Shown: positions 17,528-26,709 of the stretch, in pieces | How positions within the stretch are numbered: position 1 is the first letter of the stretch | How the letters are laid out: every line of letters begins with the position of its first letter | Virus record (IMG/VR): IMGVR_UViG_3300005617_000705 | Coordinates: 1 to 31,831 of that record | DNA from: a virus | DNA length: 31,831 bases | Reading direction: 5' to 3' (one strand) | The notes under the pieces: model-generated | Databases searched by the model: none | What the model saw: the letters and a program-made list of their open reading frames with translations, nothing else | What the model was told of the DNA's origin: nothing | Position numbers and translations under genes: made by a program

Positions 17528-18139
17528 ATGATTTCTTTAGATAACAGTGGTGTTTTAAACTACCCACAAAGAGCTGCAAACTTATTAACAGCGTCTATTG
17601 CATTCGTTCTTGATACCATTGGTTATGGAACATCTGTTCCGGCTGTTTCCTTTACTGGAGGCGGTGGTTCTGGTGCTACTGCAACCGCTGTTTTAACTAA
17701 CGGTAAAGTAACAGCGATAAATGTTACTGCCGCTGGTACAGGTTACACAACCGCTCCAACTGTAGTAATCGGTGGTGTAGGTGGTGCAAGAGCAACCGCT
17801 ACAATTGGCGGTGGTGGCGTTACTGCGGTTACAGTAAACTTCGGAGGTACAAAAAACTGTATCACGGTTACAGATAACACTACATATCCTGCTGGTGACA
17901 GCCGTAAAATTGTAGCTGTTGAAATCTATGATCGTTACAAAACAAAAGTGGCTGGCAATGTGCCTGCAACAGCATCTCCCGACATCAACTACGTGAATGT
18001 TGATATTTCAACATTGAATCCTGAACGTGGGTATGCGATGAGCATTAAAGCGGTGAGTCTGCTTGGATTGGTGAAAGATGGATCTGCTTTCAACATATCC
18101 AACACGTTTAATTCCGGTAACGTAAACATGGAAAAATAA
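17528..18139 (+). CDS. Capsid-associated protein with GTGYT-type beta repeats
   Basis: A 203-aa protein between protease and major capsid genes, the usual place for a decoration protein. Residues about 33-108 are glycine/threonine-rich with a repeated unit: GATATA, NGKVTAINVT, AAGTGYT, APTVVI, then a degenerate second copy (RATATIGGGGVTAVTVNFGG). The same unit occurs in the gene at 19246. The flanking residues 1-32 (MISLDNSGVLNYPQRAANLL) and 109-203 are not repetitive and have a beta-rich pattern. No signal peptide. The leader is A/T-rich. Decoration or cement protein is my preferred reading by position; direct evidence is lacking. Confidence 0.6.
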   Translation: MISLDNSGVLNYPQRAANLLTASIAFVLDTIGYGTSVPAVSFTGGGGSGATATAVLTNGKVTAINVTAAGTGYTTAPTVVIGGVGGARATATIGGGGVTAVTVNFGGTKNCITVTDNTTYPAGDSRKIVAVEIYDRYKTKVAGNVPATASPDINYVNVDISTLNPERGYAMSIKAVSLLGLVKDGSAFNISNTFNSGNVNMEK

Positions 18140-18166: not shown

Positions 18167-19192
18167 ATGTTACAATTAACACCATTCAGAGTTGAGCCAA
18201 AGGCAATGCACGAGCTGATCATTATGCCCCAGTTTGGAGATGTAATTGATTCAGAAACCGGCCAGGTTACCATTCCTTCTGACGAAGAAGGCGATTGGCA
18301 GATCATGGACGACGTAGTAGTGTCCAGGCCAATCATGGATTTGTTTGGCGGCCAAAACATTTTAAAACGCAGGGACGCGACCTGTAAATTGATATATTCT
18401 CCTGTGGGCCGTTTGGGTGCAAGGCTGATCAAAACAGAAAAGCTATATGCAGCAACCGAAGATTGCCAGGAAGAATTTTACCAAGGCGCATTCGAAGATT
18501 ACGAGCAACAAAACTTTGATGCTTTCTTCGAAAATGTAATGCCATTCATCGAAAAAGGTGTGGCCACTGATATTTATACCAATAAATACTTTGGTGATAT
18601 CAGCAGGACTTCTGATGTAAACGGCATCTGGAGCTGGAACAGGTTTGATGGTGTATTTACGCAGATCGCAAGATATGTTGCTGCAGGTACAATCCCCGCT
18701 GGCCAAACATTCACCATTCCTTCCGGTACATTAACGCCATCACAGGCTAATGCAGCATTGCAAAGTGCATTCGATAAACAGGATGGCATCTTGAAATTCT
18801 TTGATAAAGCTGATAAGGCTTTTTATGTTGACCAGGATTTGGCTGAAGCTTACCATGAATATGTAGTTACCAGCGGCGTTACTGTTCTTATGGAACGTAT
18901 GACCGGCCGGCCAATGCTGTTCAAAAAAGGTATTGAAGTGCGTGTGAAAAAATGGGATGGAGTACTCGCTGCATTAAATGCAGGTACTGCTGCACATGCT
19001 TGTATTCTTACACTTAAAGGAAACTTCCTTTATGCTGCTGATAGCAAATATGGTGGTGGCCCTAAACGCAATGAAGCGATCAGGATGTGGTGGAGCGATG
19101 ATGACAACATCTGGAAACGCCAAATCCATTTGAAGGCAGGTACTGAGATTGCCGCACCACAGCACATTGTATTTGGAATGACTTCGTTTTAA
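18167..19192 (+). CDS. Major capsid protein
   Basis: A 341-aa protein of the size and location expected for an HK97-fold capsid protein: after protease and decoration candidate, before tail tube and portal. It has a long extended N-terminal region with acidic stretches (EDCQEEFYQGAFEDYEQQN), a central helix-rich part (ANAALQSAFDKQDGILKFFD), and a C-terminal beta-rich part (KGIEVRVKKWDGVLAALNAG, KRNEAIRMWWSDDDNIWKRQ). Sequence features alone do not identify the fold; context makes this call. Palindrome copy 3 begins seven bases after its stop, and the preceding leader TTTTTAAATTTTATATAA is A/T-rich, as expected for a highly translated Bacteroidota gene. Confidence 0.8.
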   Translation: MLQLTPFRVEPKAMHELIIMPQFGDVIDSETGQVTIPSDEEGDWQIMDDVVVSRPIMDLFGGQNILKRRDATCKLIYSPVGRLGARLIKTEKLYAATEDCQEEFYQGAFEDYEQQNFDAFFENVMPFIEKGVATDIYTNKYFGDISRTSDVNGIWSWNRFDGVFTQIARYVAAGTIPAGQTFTIPSGTLTPSQANAALQSAFDKQDGILKFFDKADKAFYVDQDLAEAYHEYVVTSGVTVLMERMTGRPMLFKKGIEVRVKKWDGVLAALNAGTAAHACILTLKGNFLYAADSKYGGGPKRNEAIRMWWSDDDNIWKRQIHLKAGTEIAAPQHIVFGMTSF

Positions 19193-19245: not shown

Positions 19246-20064
19246 ATGCTTGGTTGTATAGTAAAAGGATATACTAAACCCTGTGTTGTTACCACAGGTG
19301 GTTGCGATATTTTATTAGTTGGCGATGCCAACGACTGGGATTTTACCGAAGGTACACCCGGTGCCGATGGTGAAGCAGTGGGTTATTCTACTGTAGCCAG
19401 AAGGGTATTGGGTAGCGGTGCCACTGCAACTTCTGCCGTAGCCAGTGGTGCTGTTACTGGAGTAACAGTTACGGCTGGTGGTACCGGTTACACTTCAGGT
19501 GTTACCATTTCATTTACCGGAGCAGGTACTGGCGCAACAGCGACAGCGACAGTTGTTGGTGGCGTTATTACTGCAATTACCGTTACTGCTCCAGGTACTG
19601 GTTATACTTCCGCACCAACAGTGGTGATCACTCCCGCGGCCGCGACAGCTGCCGGTGGCGCTTATTTCTACCCAATAGATTCTTTGGAAGATACTATCAG
19701 CGTAGATATAACTCAATCAAACCCAAGTGGATCTTCTGCATGGGCTTACGATATCCAGGCAAATATGGCTTCGTTCTGTCAGGCTATGACCAACTTCAAT
19801 AAGAAGATCGACGCGGCTTCTTATTGCTGCCAGCTGGTGTTTATCTGGCGCCAGAACGATGGAAAAATATTTGTTGCCGGTGAAAAATATGTCGGTGGTG
19901 CACTGATCCAGAGATTCCGTTTAAAACAGGACGGTTCAAAAATTTCAACCGGAAAGAAATTTACTGATTTCAACGGCCAGAACCTTTCAATAAAAGGCGA
20001 ATACTTAAGGCCTGCTTATGAATTCACAGGCGGTATCGTAGCATTGCAAGGTTTCATGCCATAA
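19246..20064 (+). CDS. Probable major tail-tube protein with inserted GTGYT-type repeat
   Basis: A 272-aa protein. The C-terminal third ([18 protein letters not shown], then [20 protein letters not shown], then [12 protein letters not shown]) matches the pattern I recall for tail-tube proteins in Bacteroidota phages: an xxxNDGKxxxxG turn and a late DFNGxxLxxxGE motif. Residues about 57-130 are an insertion of two repeats ([11 protein letters not shown].. [19 protein letters not shown].. [15 protein letters not shown]), also found in the gene at 17528. The flanking N-terminal [14 protein letters not shown] and post-insert [16 protein letters not shown] should be one core domain. The repeats may form a surface ornament on the tube. 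The alternative is a decoration protein. No signal peptide. Confidence 0.55.
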
Positions 20065-20076
20065 AATAATTTCCCT

Positions 20077-20325
20077 ATGGAGAACAAAAAAAACACCATT
20101 AAAGTTAAGCCCGGACATGAAAACATTGTGTTCGGGTTTAACAATAGTGCAAAGCCATTGGGCCAAAGGAATGACTTGCATTTGCTTTATGCAGATGCAA
20201 GTCATCATAACATAAAACACATACTTGATCTGTTTGAAGAAGTAACTGACAAAGAAGTTGAGGAGACTAAGGAAAATGCCTTTTTAGAAAAACAAGCAGA
20301 AAAAAATAAAACTACTGATGAGTAA
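20077..20325 (+). CDS. Small acidic-tailed protein, gene contains two strong RNA hairpins
   Basis: An 82-aa protein: a basic N-terminus (MENKKNTIKVKPGHENIVFG), a middle helix (HNIKHILDLFEEV), and a C-terminal run of Glu/Lys (KEVEETKENAFLEKQAEKN). It sits between the tail-tube candidate and portal genes, 12 and 3 bases from its neighbours. The function is unknown; the short protein could be a chaperone or connector. The unusual point is in the nucleotide sequence: two near-perfect inverted repeats at 20104-20142 and 20171-20205 would fold the mRNA into two long stems within the coding region. Confidence 0.6.
   Translation: MENKKNTIKVKPGHENIVFGFNNSAKPLGQRNDLHLLYADASHHNIKHILDLFEEVTDKEVEETKENAFLEKQAEKNKTTDE
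20104..20142 (+). repeat. Inverted repeat / RNA hairpin 1 inside small gene
   Basis: Left arm GTTAAGCCCGGACA (20104-20117) pairs with right arm TGTTCGGGTTTAAC (20129-20142) over 14 positions, with two G-U wobbles; two further wobbles and an A-U inside leave a five-base loop. It lies about 25 bases into the coding sequence at 20077. No U tract follows, so a simple intrinsic terminator is not indicated. Confidence 0.6.
20171..20205 (+). repeat. Inverted repeat / RNA hairpin 2 inside small gene
   Basis: Left arm ATGACTTGCATTTGC (20171-20185) pairs with right arm GCAGATGCAAGTCAT (20191-20205) over 15 positions with one G-U wobble and a five-base TTTAT loop. Eleven outer pairs are perfect. It begins 29 bases after hairpin 1, in the same small gene. 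It is followed by CATAACATAAAAC, not a U tract. Likely roles are mRNA stability, processing or translational control between tail-tube and portal genes. Confidence 0.62.
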
Positions 20326-20328
20326 CTC

Positions 20329-21762
20329 ATGCCTGAAAAAGATAGCATTCCGAAAACTCAATTCGAGGTTAGGCTTAAGATTGAAAACTCAATTAAGTTA
20401 GACCCCGAAAACCCTATACCAATTCAGTATGGGGGCAATTCTTTTTATACAGTTTCCTCAGCCAAAGGTGCAAAAAAATATATTCCATTCATCGGCCGTG
20501 ATGATAACATGGCCCAGCTATTATTAGAAGCCCGTCTCACTTCCACTACACAAAATATTTGCATTTCAACAATATCTCAGAGTGTTGTTGGTAAAGGCAT
20601 GTCTGTCGTTGACAATGCAAAGCCTGATGCTGATTATACAACCTGGTTAAAGAAAGTAAATAATGAACAGCAGTCCTTCGATGATGTGCTGCGTGATATC
20701 GTTGATGGGGAAAGAACTTATGGCAACCAGTTTATTGAAGTGCTGCAGGGAGAAATAAATAAGAAAAAGTTTATTAAGATCTACCTGCATGCTATGCAAT
20801 ATTGCAGGTTTAAATGGCCAGAAGAAGATTCCGAAGATGTAACTCATGTGATCATAAGCAAACTGCTTGCACGTAAAGGATTCCGGGCCATTGATTTAAA
20901 GGATAGCCGTGTTATTCCTCTTTATAGCGATAACCCGCTGGATAAAAATAAATGCTGGTTGGATAATGGCGATGGTACCAAGAGTACTATGCTGCATTTA
21001 AAGAATGAAGTTAACGGTGTGGATTATTACGGGTTACCGGCTTCCATTGCCGGCCTGCGTTACCAGGTGCTGGAAGGAAAATCTGCACAGTATAATATTG
21101 ATGAGTTTGAAAACAATATGGTATTGGGTGGCATGCTGATTTTCAAATCATCGATGACAACCGAAGAAGCACAAAAGAATGCAAAGGAAATATTGATGTC
21201 TCATGTTGGTACCGGTAAAGCTGGCCGTATTTCAGTTATCAGCAGTGAAAGTGGCTTGGCCGATGTAGAATACATTCCTTATGAAACAAAAAAGGATGGC
21301 AGCTACATTGAACTTGATCAAAGGATAGAACAAAAAATTGTTGCTGCTAACGGATGGGATGCATTGTTAGCTGGTATCCACCAGGCACGATCAAGCCTCG
21401 GGGTTGGTAGTGGTTATGTAAGGGCCATCTACGATATTAAAGAAGCTGTTTTACTCAACCCACTAAGAAAAAAAATTATCGATAAGATCATTATACCGAT
21501 AATGAATATTTATGCGGATGTAACTGGTAAGAAGGAAATTTTGAAATATGAGTTCACATTCCAATCATCAATGCCATTCAGTTTCATGGGTGATATTGAT
21601 CCCACAACGTTTATGAAAGTTAGTGAAGCCAGGGAACTTGCCGGTATGCCTCCGGATGAAAAGAATGGAGATAAATACCTAAGCGAAATGGGTGGTGGTA
21701 AAAAGACAGCAAACACTGGAGGTGGTAATAAAGGAAATCCGGGTGATGGAGGTAAAGAATAA
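20329..21762 (+). CDS. Portal protein
   Basis: A 477-aa protein with the length and order expected of a portal, the dodecameric ring through which DNA passes at the head vertex. After a polar N-terminus (residues 1-50) it has a long alpha/beta body with SSLGVGSGYVRAIYDIKEAV, KKIIDKIIIPIMNIYADVTG and MPFSFMGDIDPTTFMKVSEA, the last close to the stem/clip pattern. Then follow ELAGMPPDEKNGDKYLSEMG and a Gly-rich C-terminal tail. The pattern of FSFMGDIDP and REL(A)GMxP resembles portal proteins of Bacteroidota phages. Start ATG 20329 follows a three-base gap. A connector candidate follows directly, in keeping with the role. Confidence 0.75.
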   Translation: MPEKDSIPKTQFEVRLKIENSIKLDPENPIPIQYGGNSFYTVSSAKGAKKYIPFIGRDDNMAQLLLEARLTSTTQNICISTISQSVVGKGMSVVDNAKPDADYTTWLKKVNNEQQSFDDVLRDIVDGERTYGNQFIEVLQGEINKKKFIKIYLHAMQYCRFKWPEEDSEDVTHVIISKLLARKGFRAIDLKDSRVIPLYSDNPLDKNKCWLDNGDGTKSTMLHLKNEVNGVDYYGLPASIAGLRYQVLEGKSAQYNIDEFENNMVLGGMLIFKSSMTTEEAQKNAKEILMSHVGTGKAGRISVISSESGLADVEYIPYETKKDGSYIELDQRIEQKIVAANGWDALLAGIHQARSSLGVGSGYVRAIYDIKEAVLLNPLRKKIIDKIIIPIMNIYADVTGKKEILKYEFTFQSSMPFSFMGDIDPTTFMKVSEARELAGMPPDEKNGDKYLSEMGGGKKTANTGGGNKGNPGDGGKE

Positions 21763-22840: not shown

Positions 22841-25666
22841 ATGAAGAAAATAATTTCAATACTGTATTTTATGCTGATGGCATTTGCCGGCAGCGCACAG
22901 CTGAGTACAAAAATCACTGATGCGAAAAATTACAATAACGCAAATATCGTTACTAACGCTACAAAACAAATTACTGCTGTAAAAGTAAATACTGCATTGG
23001 ACAAGATATTGCAGGCAATTGATTTTGTAGATACGGCAAGAAGATTTCAGCAATTAAATTTGACAGGTGGCGCAGGTATTAACGTTAGCGGTACTTTTCC
23101 AAACATAAATGTTAGCAATATTGATTCTGCACTTATTTCCATAACGAAACCGCAGGCTGATACACTAATAAAATACAGCCAGTTAAAGAAAGGATACTTT
23201 TATAAAATCTCCGGTACACATTCTTCACTTTATAATGATGGTACCAGCTCAGGCACAACGCTTATATTAATGGCTGTTAGTAATTATAAATTCTCTCAGA
23301 TTGGTTGGGGAGTTTTTTATAATCCAAAATACAATCAAGCAACGGCTGGATTTGGAATTTGGAATCCATACAGTACCTGGACTGCCGGAACCATGACAGG
23401 TATGTTTAATGCAGGTGAGTTGATAACCGCAAACAATGGAGCGACAGGACAGCTGGTAGGTGTTCCGCAAACAGGGTTCTTTATCCCGCTTACCGGTACA
23501 TGGACAAGTGGGGTAACATCTGTTACCGGAAATGTAACCGGAGCAACTCTTACTGTTTCAGGTATCGCCATTAAATCCTATACTGCTGCATCTAAAACTA
23601 TTTGGGGTGGATATTCCTGGACAAATCTTACCGGAGCTGTGGGAACCGCTACTAATGTTACAACACTTGATGGTACCAACTGGCTTAAAAATGCTTATGA
23701 TACATCAAATTACAACATCGCTATTGACAATGTAGATTATGATTATAGCAATGATTTCATTGTTAAGCGTCATGAGGTACAAGGTAATAACACGGTAGTT
23801 TGTACTAAAAATAATCTCACTGGTTTTTCACCATCCTTTCACCCGATCGCAGTTTTCCAATGGGGAAATGCATTCGCTTCTCAAAAGGGTATGGGTAATA
23901 ACTGGATTGATAATTCCTACTGTGAGACTATAGATTTCCGGGGCGGATATTTTTATAACAATTTTATTGTTGGGGTATCAAATTTTAAAAATAATATACT
24001 TCTTGGTACAACAGCTGTATATGATAATAGAATTACTGCAGGTAATTTTCAATCAAATATTCTTGCAGGTGCTTCCACTGTGTACCTGAATACCATAGAA
24101 CAAACTTCCGCAATTTCGACAAATAGCGGGGCAACCGCAGTTATAAATCAAAATAGGATTACGGGTGGAGGATCTATCGATAACAATTTATTTTATGGAG
24201 CAGGGAATATTATCGATAATAAGATGTTAGGAGATGCCTCTTCGAATGGTACAATTATTTCAGCAAATAAATTTCTTACATCAAACTGTAACATTAGTTT
24301 TAATATAATGTATGCTGGGACCATAAATAATAATATTCTGAATAAAACAAGTTTTAGTGCTGCTTCAATAATTAGCAATTCTATGTATGGAAATAGTGCC
24401 ATAAATAGTAATAATATTTTCAAATCAAGCATCAATAACAATTATCTTCTGGTAAGCAATATAAGTTTCGATTCCCTAAATACTGGACAGATTAGATATA
24501 ATTCGCTTATTCATTCGAGTATGAACTTGGATACTTTGATAAATGCAACCGCTATTGACGTTTCAGATATCAAACTTTATACAAACACTTTTTCAAATAA
24601 ACGTATTACAACAACAACTCAATATGTAGTTGTAGATAATATGTCTTATGCACGTTATCCAAACATTGCAACTACTACAACATTACCTGATTACATAATG
24701 GTGATGCATGGGGATACATTGATGAAAATCCTTAGTTCAAATGTAACGACATTGAACCTGGGTAATAATGATCTGACAAATATTTCTTCTGGCACAAGGT
24801 ATTACGATAACAATTTTAAAAATTTATACTTTATAAATACAGGACGAATGAGGATTAGCCAGGTAATGTCAAATTATGGGTTTATCTATGATTTTGCCAA
24901 GACTACTGACTTAAATAATTATGATAGTACTTGGACTTGTGGTATAAATATGGAGAGTGGCTCCAGGATTCAAATTTATTATAAGGATAAAAATAATGGA
25001 GACTCAGCATCTTATTTTGAAATTGGGCGTGTTGTAAAAATAGTTTCAAAAGACACAGTTTATTTTGGAACTGATCTTGATAGTGCAAAGGCATTTATTA
25101 CTAGAGATGGAGTTTTCAAATATACAGCTAACCGTGGGGCTGCAATTACTGCAAGAGCGATTCCCGACTATGGATTTATAGATAGTATGGTAAATGCAAG
25201 ATTAGCTGCAGGAAAATATACACAAACAATTCATAGTGATGTTTCTGGTGCATCAAATGTTAGTGGTTCAACAACTGATCTCTTACATTATGATATTCCA
25301 CTAACTAATTGGGTTACTGATGGTGATTGTGTTAATTTTTCAATGTCATTTTTTACTAATTCAACAACAACAAACAGAACAATTGAAATATTGTTTGGAG
25401 GTTCAACAGTATTTACAACAGGTGCTGTTTCTACACCACCAAGTAAATATGTTAGTATAACAGGAAAGATAGTTAAAACTGGTTCATACTGGTATGTTTC
25501 ATCTCAAATGGTTAGTGATGCTTCAACATTTGGAAGTGCATTCACTAGCGTTCTATATACAGGTTTTCCTATAACTACTGTGGAATTAAAAGCAACTGGA
25601 TTGGCAACTGGAACAAATGTATTAGGACAACAATATTTAATTGTAACTAAAACTCCGGCAAACTAA
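22841..25666 (+). CDS. Large signal-peptide fibre with beta-solenoid and tip domain
   Basis: A 941-aa protein. It starts with a classical signal peptide (MKKII, hydrophobic core, cleavage expected after A19 before Q20). Residues about 20-130 are helical (NNANIVTNATKQITAVKVNT). Residues 130-360 are beta-rich with Gly/Thr segments. Residues about 365-590 form Asn/Ile/Ser-rich repeats (NNFIVG, NNILLG, DNRITA, NNNILNKTSF and others), a likely beta-solenoid. Residues about 797-941 form a beta-sandwich-like tip (SGSTTDLLHYDIPLTNWVTD onward), a candidate receptor- or glycan-binding head. A Sec signal on a fibre is unusual; either it is exported or it keeps a signal from a captured host gene. It overlaps the next gene by one base (stop TAATG). 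Confidence 0.75.
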   Translation: MKKIISILYFMLMAFAGSAQLSTKITDAKNYNNANIVTNATKQITAVKVNTALDKILQAIDFVDTARRFQQLNLTGGAGINVSGTFPNINVSNIDSALISITKPQADTLIKYSQLKKGYFYKISGTHSSLYNDGTSSGTTLILMAVSNYKFSQIGWGVFYNPKYNQATAGFGIWNPYSTWTAGTMTGMFNAGELITANNGATGQLVGVPQTGFFIPLTGTWTSGVTSVTGNVTGATLTVSGIAIKSYTAASKTIWGGYSWTNLTGAVGTATNVTTLDGTNWLKNAYDTSNYNIAIDNVDYDYSNDFIVKRHEVQGNNTVVCTKNNLTGFSPSFHPIAVFQWGNAFASQKGMGNNWIDNSYCETIDFRGGYFYNNFIVGVSNFKNNILLGTTAVYDNRITAGNFQSNILAGASTVYLNTIEQTSAISTNSGATAVINQNRITGGGSIDNNLFYGAGNIIDNKMLGDASSNGTIISANKFLTSNCNISFNIMYAGTINNNILNKTSFSAASIISNSMYGNSAINSNNIFKSSINNNYLLVSNISFDSLNTGQIRYNSLIHSSMNLDTLINATAIDVSDIKLYTNTFSNKRITTTTQYVVVDNMSYARYPNIATTTTLPDYIMVMHGDTLMKILSSNVTTLNLGNNDLTNISSGTRYYDNNFKNLYFINTGRMRISQVMSNYGFIYDFAKTTDLNNYDSTWTCGINMESGSRIQIYYKDKNNGDSASYFEIGRVVKIVSKDTVYFGTDLDSAKAFITRDGVFKYTANRGAAITARAIPDYGFIDSMVNARLAAGKYTQTIHSDVSGASNVSGSTTDLLHYDIPLTNWVTDGDCVNFSMSFFTNSTTTNRTIEILFGGSTVFTTGAVSTPPSKYVSITGKIVKTGSYWYVSSQMVSDASTFGSAFTSVLYTGFPITTVELKATGLATGTNVLGQQYLIVTKTPAN

Positions 25667-26709
25667 TGAAGAGGTTTATTATACATAAAAAAGATTTGCA
25701 CTTAATATCTGACCGCAATTATAAGAATGCTGTTGACATGATGGGAAGTGATGCAATTATTACAAATACGGATAACCTGGATTATCACAATTTGGATTTT
25801 GTTGCTATTTGCTTGACACCTGCAGAAGAGTTAGCTTTTAAGAATGCCGGTGTTGAAATTACAGAGAGTAAACCACAACCGGCTATCATTGGGAAATGGA
25901 ATGGCGCCAGCGTGTTTCAACCCACTTTAGGAAAATATCCATTTGAAGAAATGGGATTTGATAAGTACGATAACAAAAATATTACTGGTAAAAATATTAA
26001 AGTTGGTGCCATAGATTCAGGATTTAATCCATCTGGTACTTGCACAATTAATAGTGGCATAAATTATACTTCAGGTGATTCGTCTTATGCTGATGTAGTT
26101 GGCCATGGTACTCATGTAAGTTATATGTGTAAAAGTGCAGTTTGGGGTACTATACCGAATAGCAATTTTCGGATGATAAAATGTATAACTGATATTGGAA
26201 TGATGGATGAAACACTTTTTTTAGCTGGCGTTAGTGATGCCATCGCTAATCAATTACAACTTGTAAACATGTCGTTTCAGCTTAGTGGAACAAGATCAGT
26301 TATTCAATCAGCAATCGATTCTTTAATTAGTGCCGGCTGCTTACCAATAGTTGCTGGTGGTAATAGCGGTAATGCTGCTGACGTATCAATGCCAGCATCT
26401 TGCTTTGGAACGGTAGCGGTTGGCTATTGTGGACCAAATTTTATTATTGATCCTTCTTCATCATTACAAGTTCCTTCGGGTGGCCATGGGATTACTATTG
26501 TGGCACCAGGACAAAATGTTCCTGTTGGAGGTGATGCTGGAACTGGATTAGGAAACGGAAGTTCTTATGCAGCACCCTACGTAATGGCAGCATTGGCTTG
26601 TATCATGCAGGAGCACAATATGAATCCGTTTCAAGCACTCAATTTACTTAAAGGAAATGCAATCAAATCAAATTCACTATACGGAGCAGGCTTTTTGAAC
26701 TGCCCATAA
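25666..26709 (+). CDS. Subtilisin-like serine protease in fibre module
   Basis: A 347-aa protein of the S8 (subtilase) family. The catalytic residues are in canonical motifs: Asp117 in VGAIDSGF, His147 in GHGTHVS, oxyanion Asn233 in AGGNSG, and Ser300 in GSSYAAP, which corresponds to GTSMAAP. Residues 1-100 precede the catalytic domain and may act as a prodomain; no signal peptide is visible. The gene is fused in translation to the fibre gene (TAATG) and followed by a signal-peptide beta-helix gene. Possible roles are cleavage of host-surface proteins, fibre maturation, or processing in the infected cell. Subtilases are rare in tail modules, so its role deserves a check. The protease family assignment itself is firm. 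Confidence 0.88.
   Translation: MKRFIIHKKDLHLISDRNYKNAVDMMGSDAIITNTDNLDYHNLDFVAICLTPAEELAFKNAGVEITESKPQPAIIGKWNGASVFQPTLGKYPFEEMGFDKYDNKNITGKNIKVGAIDSGFNPSGTCTINSGINYTSGDSSYADVVGHGTHVSYMCKSAVWGTIPNSNFRMIKCITDIGMMDETLFLAGVSDAIANQLQLVNMSFQLSGTRSVIQSAIDSLISAGCLPIVAGGNSGNAADVSMPASCFGTVAVGYCGPNFIIDPSSSLQVPSGGHGITIVAPGQNVPVGGDAGTGLGNGSSYAAPYVMAALACIMQEHNMNPFQALNLLKGNAIKSNSLYGAGFLNCP

Follow-up and report, generated by a model that had tools for sequence, protein, structure and literature searches.

Gene organization at the locus

The window, that is, the whole 31,831-nt stretch of viral DNA analysed here, contains on its plus strand a small gene (20077-20325) that encodes an 82-aa protein and harbours both of the hairpins described below. 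It is followed by the portal gene (20329-21762, plus strand), which was assigned by its match to phrog_12 (E = 3e-13), together with a match to PF04860 (E = 1e-6) that is under the curated cut-off of this family. Upstream of the small gene lies a 272-aa structural gene (19246-20064, plus strand), a candidate decoration or tail gene on the basis of synteny, whose PHROG matches were confined to a repeat common to virion proteins and gave no confident identity; its counterparts in relatives encode 187-315 aa. This gene is preceded by the major capsid gene (18167-19192, plus strand; 341 aa), whose AlphaFold2 model (pLDDT 77, pTM 0.77) adopts an HK97 fold and, in Foldseek searches, retrieved phage capsids and encapsulins (best E-values 3.5e-9 in PDB and 5e-19 in BFVD). 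The original prediction had placed the hairpins between a tail-tube candidate and the portal. The portal assignment holds, the 272-aa gene can be named only as a decoration or tail candidate, and the capsid gene is found two genes upstream of the small gene.

The small protein had no match in Pfam or PHROG, and its AlphaFold2 model (pLDDT 75) had none in a fold search against PDB. A search with the 82-aa protein alone also retrieved no relatives, and we gathered them via portal searches followed by growing capsid alignments. In this way homologues of the small protein were identified in 43 distinct records. They have a conserved motif, V-x-G-F-N-N-S-x-x-P-L-G-x-R, and the sequence comparison indicates that the 82-aa open reading frame is a real conserved gene. 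The relatives include a prophage of Deminuibacter soli (L017; Chitinophagaceae); a search of 395 class-level genomes added nothing beyond this already-known prophage, and no relative was found among named phage and plasmid records. The family that hosts the element is a large group of Bacteroidota-type phages.

Gene order in the relatives (n = 43) is HK97-fold capsid, second structural gene, small gene and portal, the last being scored where it was on the fetched locus, and every relative has its capsid gene upstream of the hairpin. The small and portal genes adjoin or overlap, and there is usually little space between the second structural gene and the small-gene start.

Two further features of this structural region were noticed. 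Neighbouring structural proteins of the window (17528-18139 and 19246-20064) have a common glycine-rich repeat (GSGATAT...AGGTGYT), which is present as well in relatives L009, L014 and L025, whereas L002 and L012 have shorter homologues that lack it; judging from these sequences, it is a domain that was gained or lost within the phage family. In addition, a 347-aa open reading frame among the late genes (25666-26709) has subtilisin-like motifs (D-S-G, H-G-T-H and G-S-S-Y-A-A-P) recognized by eye, and represents a serine protease candidate in the phage structural region.

Hairpins in the window

Stem 1 (20104-20142, plus strand) occupies codons 10-22 of the small gene. Positions 20104-20120 pair with 20126-20142 around the loop AAACA, which gives 17 contiguous pairs (four of them G-U), somewhat more than the 14 pairs with two G-U that had been described previously for this hairpin. 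In both the minimum free energy (MFE) and the centroid structure, the stem is extended to 20097-20149 by five outer pairs (20097-20101 with 20145-20149) across two unpaired bases on each side. Stem 2 (20171-20205, plus strand) begins after a spacer of 28 nt and is formed by 15 pairs (one G-U) between 20171-20185 and 20191-20205 with a 5-nt loop, exactly as first described.

Both hairpins were confirmed on sequence and folding as lying within codons, and their strength is very unlikely to have arisen by chance. The region 20084-20225 has an MFE of -52.6 kcal/mol compared with -24.2 +/- 3.4 kcal/mol for dinucleotide shuffles (z = -8.5). When the protein was fixed and codons were resampled according to the phage's own usage, the control that the original prediction had suggested, z was -7.4 and none of the 300 recodings matched the fold of the window. 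In addition, stems 1 and 2 are the top two 44-nt sense-strand windows of the entire 31.8 kb. Neither is followed by a U tract (the next letters are AATAGTGC for stem 1 and CATAACAT for stem 2), in agreement with the initial view that they are not plain terminators. In this and the following analyses the number of shuffles per test ranged from 30 to 300 (500 for the covariation score), and the statistics ignore kinship among members.

Conservation of stem 1 in the phage family

A strong sense-strand stem across the same codons of the small gene was found in 34 of the 43 members, with borderline cases called by judgement; L015 was counted as stem-bearing. The nine members without it are L002, L009, L025, L026, L047, L056, L058, L063 and L079. 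A protein that is kept while the pairing is lost had been named at the outset as evidence against a functional hairpin. Such cases do exist and include the close relatives L002 and L009, while most members keep the stem, often in another register. Compensatory changes in relatives, the other observation proposed at the outset, were found for stem 1: L012 retains all 17 pairs with two compensatory and three one-sided changes, and further examples occur within register C, described below.

At least six stem registers could be distinguished, with pair sums of 88, 102, 115, 118, 122/123 and 126 relative to a 114-nt frame that takes the G of GFNNS as its anchor, which was picked after the first cases had been seen. 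Stem 1 of the window is the register A version. In the commonest, register C (15 sequences), 93.8% of pair cells were paired, compared with 75% in shuffled sequences and 32-58% when the partner was slid; compensatory double changes were present at 12 of the 15 pairs, and the covariation score was reached by none of 500 shuffles. The Deminuibacter soli prophage (L017) has its stem in this register. On the capsid-gene tree the register labels require about 12 changes, and the eight-member clade of the window itself contains registers A, B and C as well as four members without a stem. Outside register A, nearly all stems have their 3' edge approximately +15 to +25 nt from the motif. The stems of the relatives mostly precede CU-rich Leu-Pro-Leu codons, with no U run.

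Controls with synonymous codons gave a similar picture for the whole family. For a 102-nt window at the site, the mean z was -2.46 in the 43 genes, 60% of which were below -2, and it was about 0 later in the small gene. Background values were -0.35 in the portal gene (33 loci, 2420 windows), -0.42 in the second structural gene and -0.68 in the capsid gene (sampled loci). The ~3.3-kb stretch from capsid to portal had its strongest 44-nt hairpin centred within 11 nt of the site in 26 of the 43 members; by chance this would be expected with ~2% probability per member, related members not being independent. Across this divergent phage family, selection has thus favoured a stable stem at the same dozen codons, with compensatory changes and no fewer than six registers.

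Stem 2 has a different distribution. Of its 15 pairs, 13 are possible in L012, and the median in the remaining relatives is 6 of 15, which is the chance level. Stem 2 was therefore excluded from the conserved element: it is a lineage-specific addition common only to the window and, imperfectly, L012, and the original treatment of the two stems as one joint element could not be maintained. An in-frame palindromic insertion of the Rickettsia type was also rejected as an origin of the stems, because no alignment gap is present at the stems in relatives.

Possible role within the operon

Stem 1 is thus the version, in the window, of a conserved RNA hairpin embedded in coding sequence. We consider it about an even chance that it acts as an intra-operon attenuator or 3'-end stabilizer, separating the expression of capsid from that of portal. 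In this proposal the stem would be a partial barrier within the operon of capsid, second structural gene, small gene and portal. Either part of transcription would be ended or paused at the stem, or the stem would block 3'-to-5' decay of the upstream capsid message. Since no U tract follows the stem, it is not an ordinary terminator, and it might work either by pausing-type partial termination or by blocking 3' exonucleases. The outcome would be more capsid mRNA than portal mRNA and, hence, less portal than capsid protein. Any sufficiently stable stem at the site would suffice, which would explain the drift of registers, and in the lineage of the window stem 2 would reinforce stem 1. The placement of the stem in coding sequence may be due to the gap before the small gene, which is too short for an intergenic terminator. 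The proposal is weakened by the absence of the stem from nine members, including four of the window's own eight-member clade, which makes it dispensable or replaceable. Translating ribosomes would open a coding stem, and the mismatches of register B (seven A-C, no G-T) are also against this proposal.

Some members have terminators elsewhere in the operon. L047 and L058, both stem-less, contain an intrinsic terminator with a U tract in a longer gap before the small gene, and no such terminator was found in this gap in any of the 34 stem-bearing members, including L015. The argument that a terminator has replaced the stem comes from two loci, with about p = 0.04, is post hoc and ignores phylogeny.

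Terminator-like stems with U-rich tails were also observed 20-70 nt past the capsid stop codon in five stem-bearing members (L065, L098, L061, L059 and L070), an arrangement that would lower expression in more than one step within the operon. A terminator right after the capsid gene was rejected as a general solution, because the scan found it in only 5 of the 43 members. Strong stems at the start of the portal gene were noted post hoc in L015 and L063; in L063, which has no small-gene stem, a textbook terminator-like stem (AAAAAAGGGGCGTCAATACGTCCCTTTTTTT) lies within portal codons at about +419 nt from the motif. L079, also without a small-gene stem, has a -27 kcal/mol stem across the capsid stop codon and a gap of 654 nt before the small-gene motif.

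More tentatively, and with somewhat less confidence than we place in the role of stem 1 itself, the hairpin of this phage family may represent a class of coding-embedded phage RNA element that is defined by position and stability and not by sequence or fixed pairing, whose register shifts repeatedly and which sets the capsid-to-portal ratio.

Alternative explanations

The same observations could be accounted for in other ways. It is possible, though unlikely, that the stem is a translational element which slows or pauses ribosomes early in the small gene, limiting the small protein and, via coupling with the adjoining or overlapping portal gene, the portal as well. The stem indeed begins at a limited distance past the small-gene start codon (~12-50 nt); however, this distance varies about fourfold whereas the 3' edge is nearly fixed, and the terminators of L047 and L058 precede the start codon. 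A slightly weaker candidate is a target for a protein or RNase, in which the capsid, portal or small protein, or RNase III, would bind the stem and the operon mRNA would be autoregulated or cut. Neither arm sequence, loop sequence nor register is kept, as might be expected for such a target, and most stems, with 9-16 pairs, are short compared with a canonical RNase III site; its attraction lies in the two adjacent stems of the window and in the small protein being always encoded on the same mRNA. A DNA-level palindrome, serving as a protein-binding or recombination site, seems improbable. Although the other strand also folds strongly (antisense z = -1.46), sense folding is much stronger overall (z = -2.46), and there is no conserved half-site. 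Mismatches are more often G-T than A-C (37 vs 15 overall, 15:2 in register C and 6:0 in register A), with the reverse in register B (0:7), which speaks for DNA. Sense folding and the G-T excess favour sense RNA, without by themselves removing a DNA role.

Two further possibilities have very little probability in our opinion. One is a recoding signal: the stem would promote frameshifting or readthrough, either out of the gene upstream or into the portal. The window does have the small gene in frame with the 272-aa gene across a single TAA (20062-20077), but L002, L012 and L014 lack this arrangement, which makes readthrough unlikely; in every member whose locus includes the portal, a stop downstream of the stem closes the portal frame, and inspection by eye of the sequence upstream of the stems revealed no recurrent slippery site. 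Frameshifting and readthrough were rejected on the basis of the closed portal frame and of the frame sharing that is not kept. The other, equally remote, is that the pairing is a by-product of protein conservation, the codons of V-x-G-F-N-N-S and its flank being complementary by accident. The conserved motif is encoded by the 3' arm, as this would require; nevertheless, the protein-fixed controls still yield the mean z of -2.46, and residues of the 5' arm change with compensation.

Comparison with known systems and implications

The nearest described kind of element is the SRPS stem-loop, which is found inside operons after the genes of an abundant product and has been proposed to set transcript stoichiometry (PMC8219983). 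The likeness lies in a stable operon stem-loop downstream of the capsid gene, the strongest of the stretch in 26 of the 43 members, with capsid being assumed here as the higher-level gene. SRPS stems are intergenic or located in 3'-UTRs, whereas the phage stem lies in the codons of the next gene; we therefore do not claim membership. The processed or stabilized 3' end and the changed transcript ratio that go with SRPS stem-loops would be predictions for the phage stem.

Leaky intergenic intrinsic terminators with U tracts are present between gene VIII and gene III of M13/fd and after gene 10 of T7 (T-phi). As in those phages, the element described here is located just past the most abundant structural gene and is predicted to reduce the gene of a minor head or tip protein. 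Unlike them, it is coding and has no U tract; terminators of that type do occur near the equivalent place in L047 and L058. With regard to the features of an intrinsic (Rho-independent) terminator, the stable stem is present and the immediate 3' U tract is absent. T7 also has RNase III sites between genes, which are likewise hairpins in phage polycistronic mRNA; the stems in our family are shorter and in coding position.

Searches of the open-access literature retrieved no precedent for a hairpin that lies in coding sequence between the genes of capsid and portal. The stem regions matched no Rfam 15 family at or above the gathering score, and the hairpin appears to be absent from Rfam. In one large microbiome screen, motifs were derived from sequence that had been predicted as non-coding (PMC8040213), and a coding-embedded stem would have been passed over. 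If our proposal is true, motif finders that are restricted to intergenic regions or to one fixed pairing would overlook position-conserved, register-free stems of this kind. The general question is how hundreds of capsid but only a dozen portal subunits are produced from one operon. A hairpin that is kept inside a coding gene, and whose pairing has been re-invented several times, would provide a directly testable answer for the capsid-to-portal ratio of this phage family.
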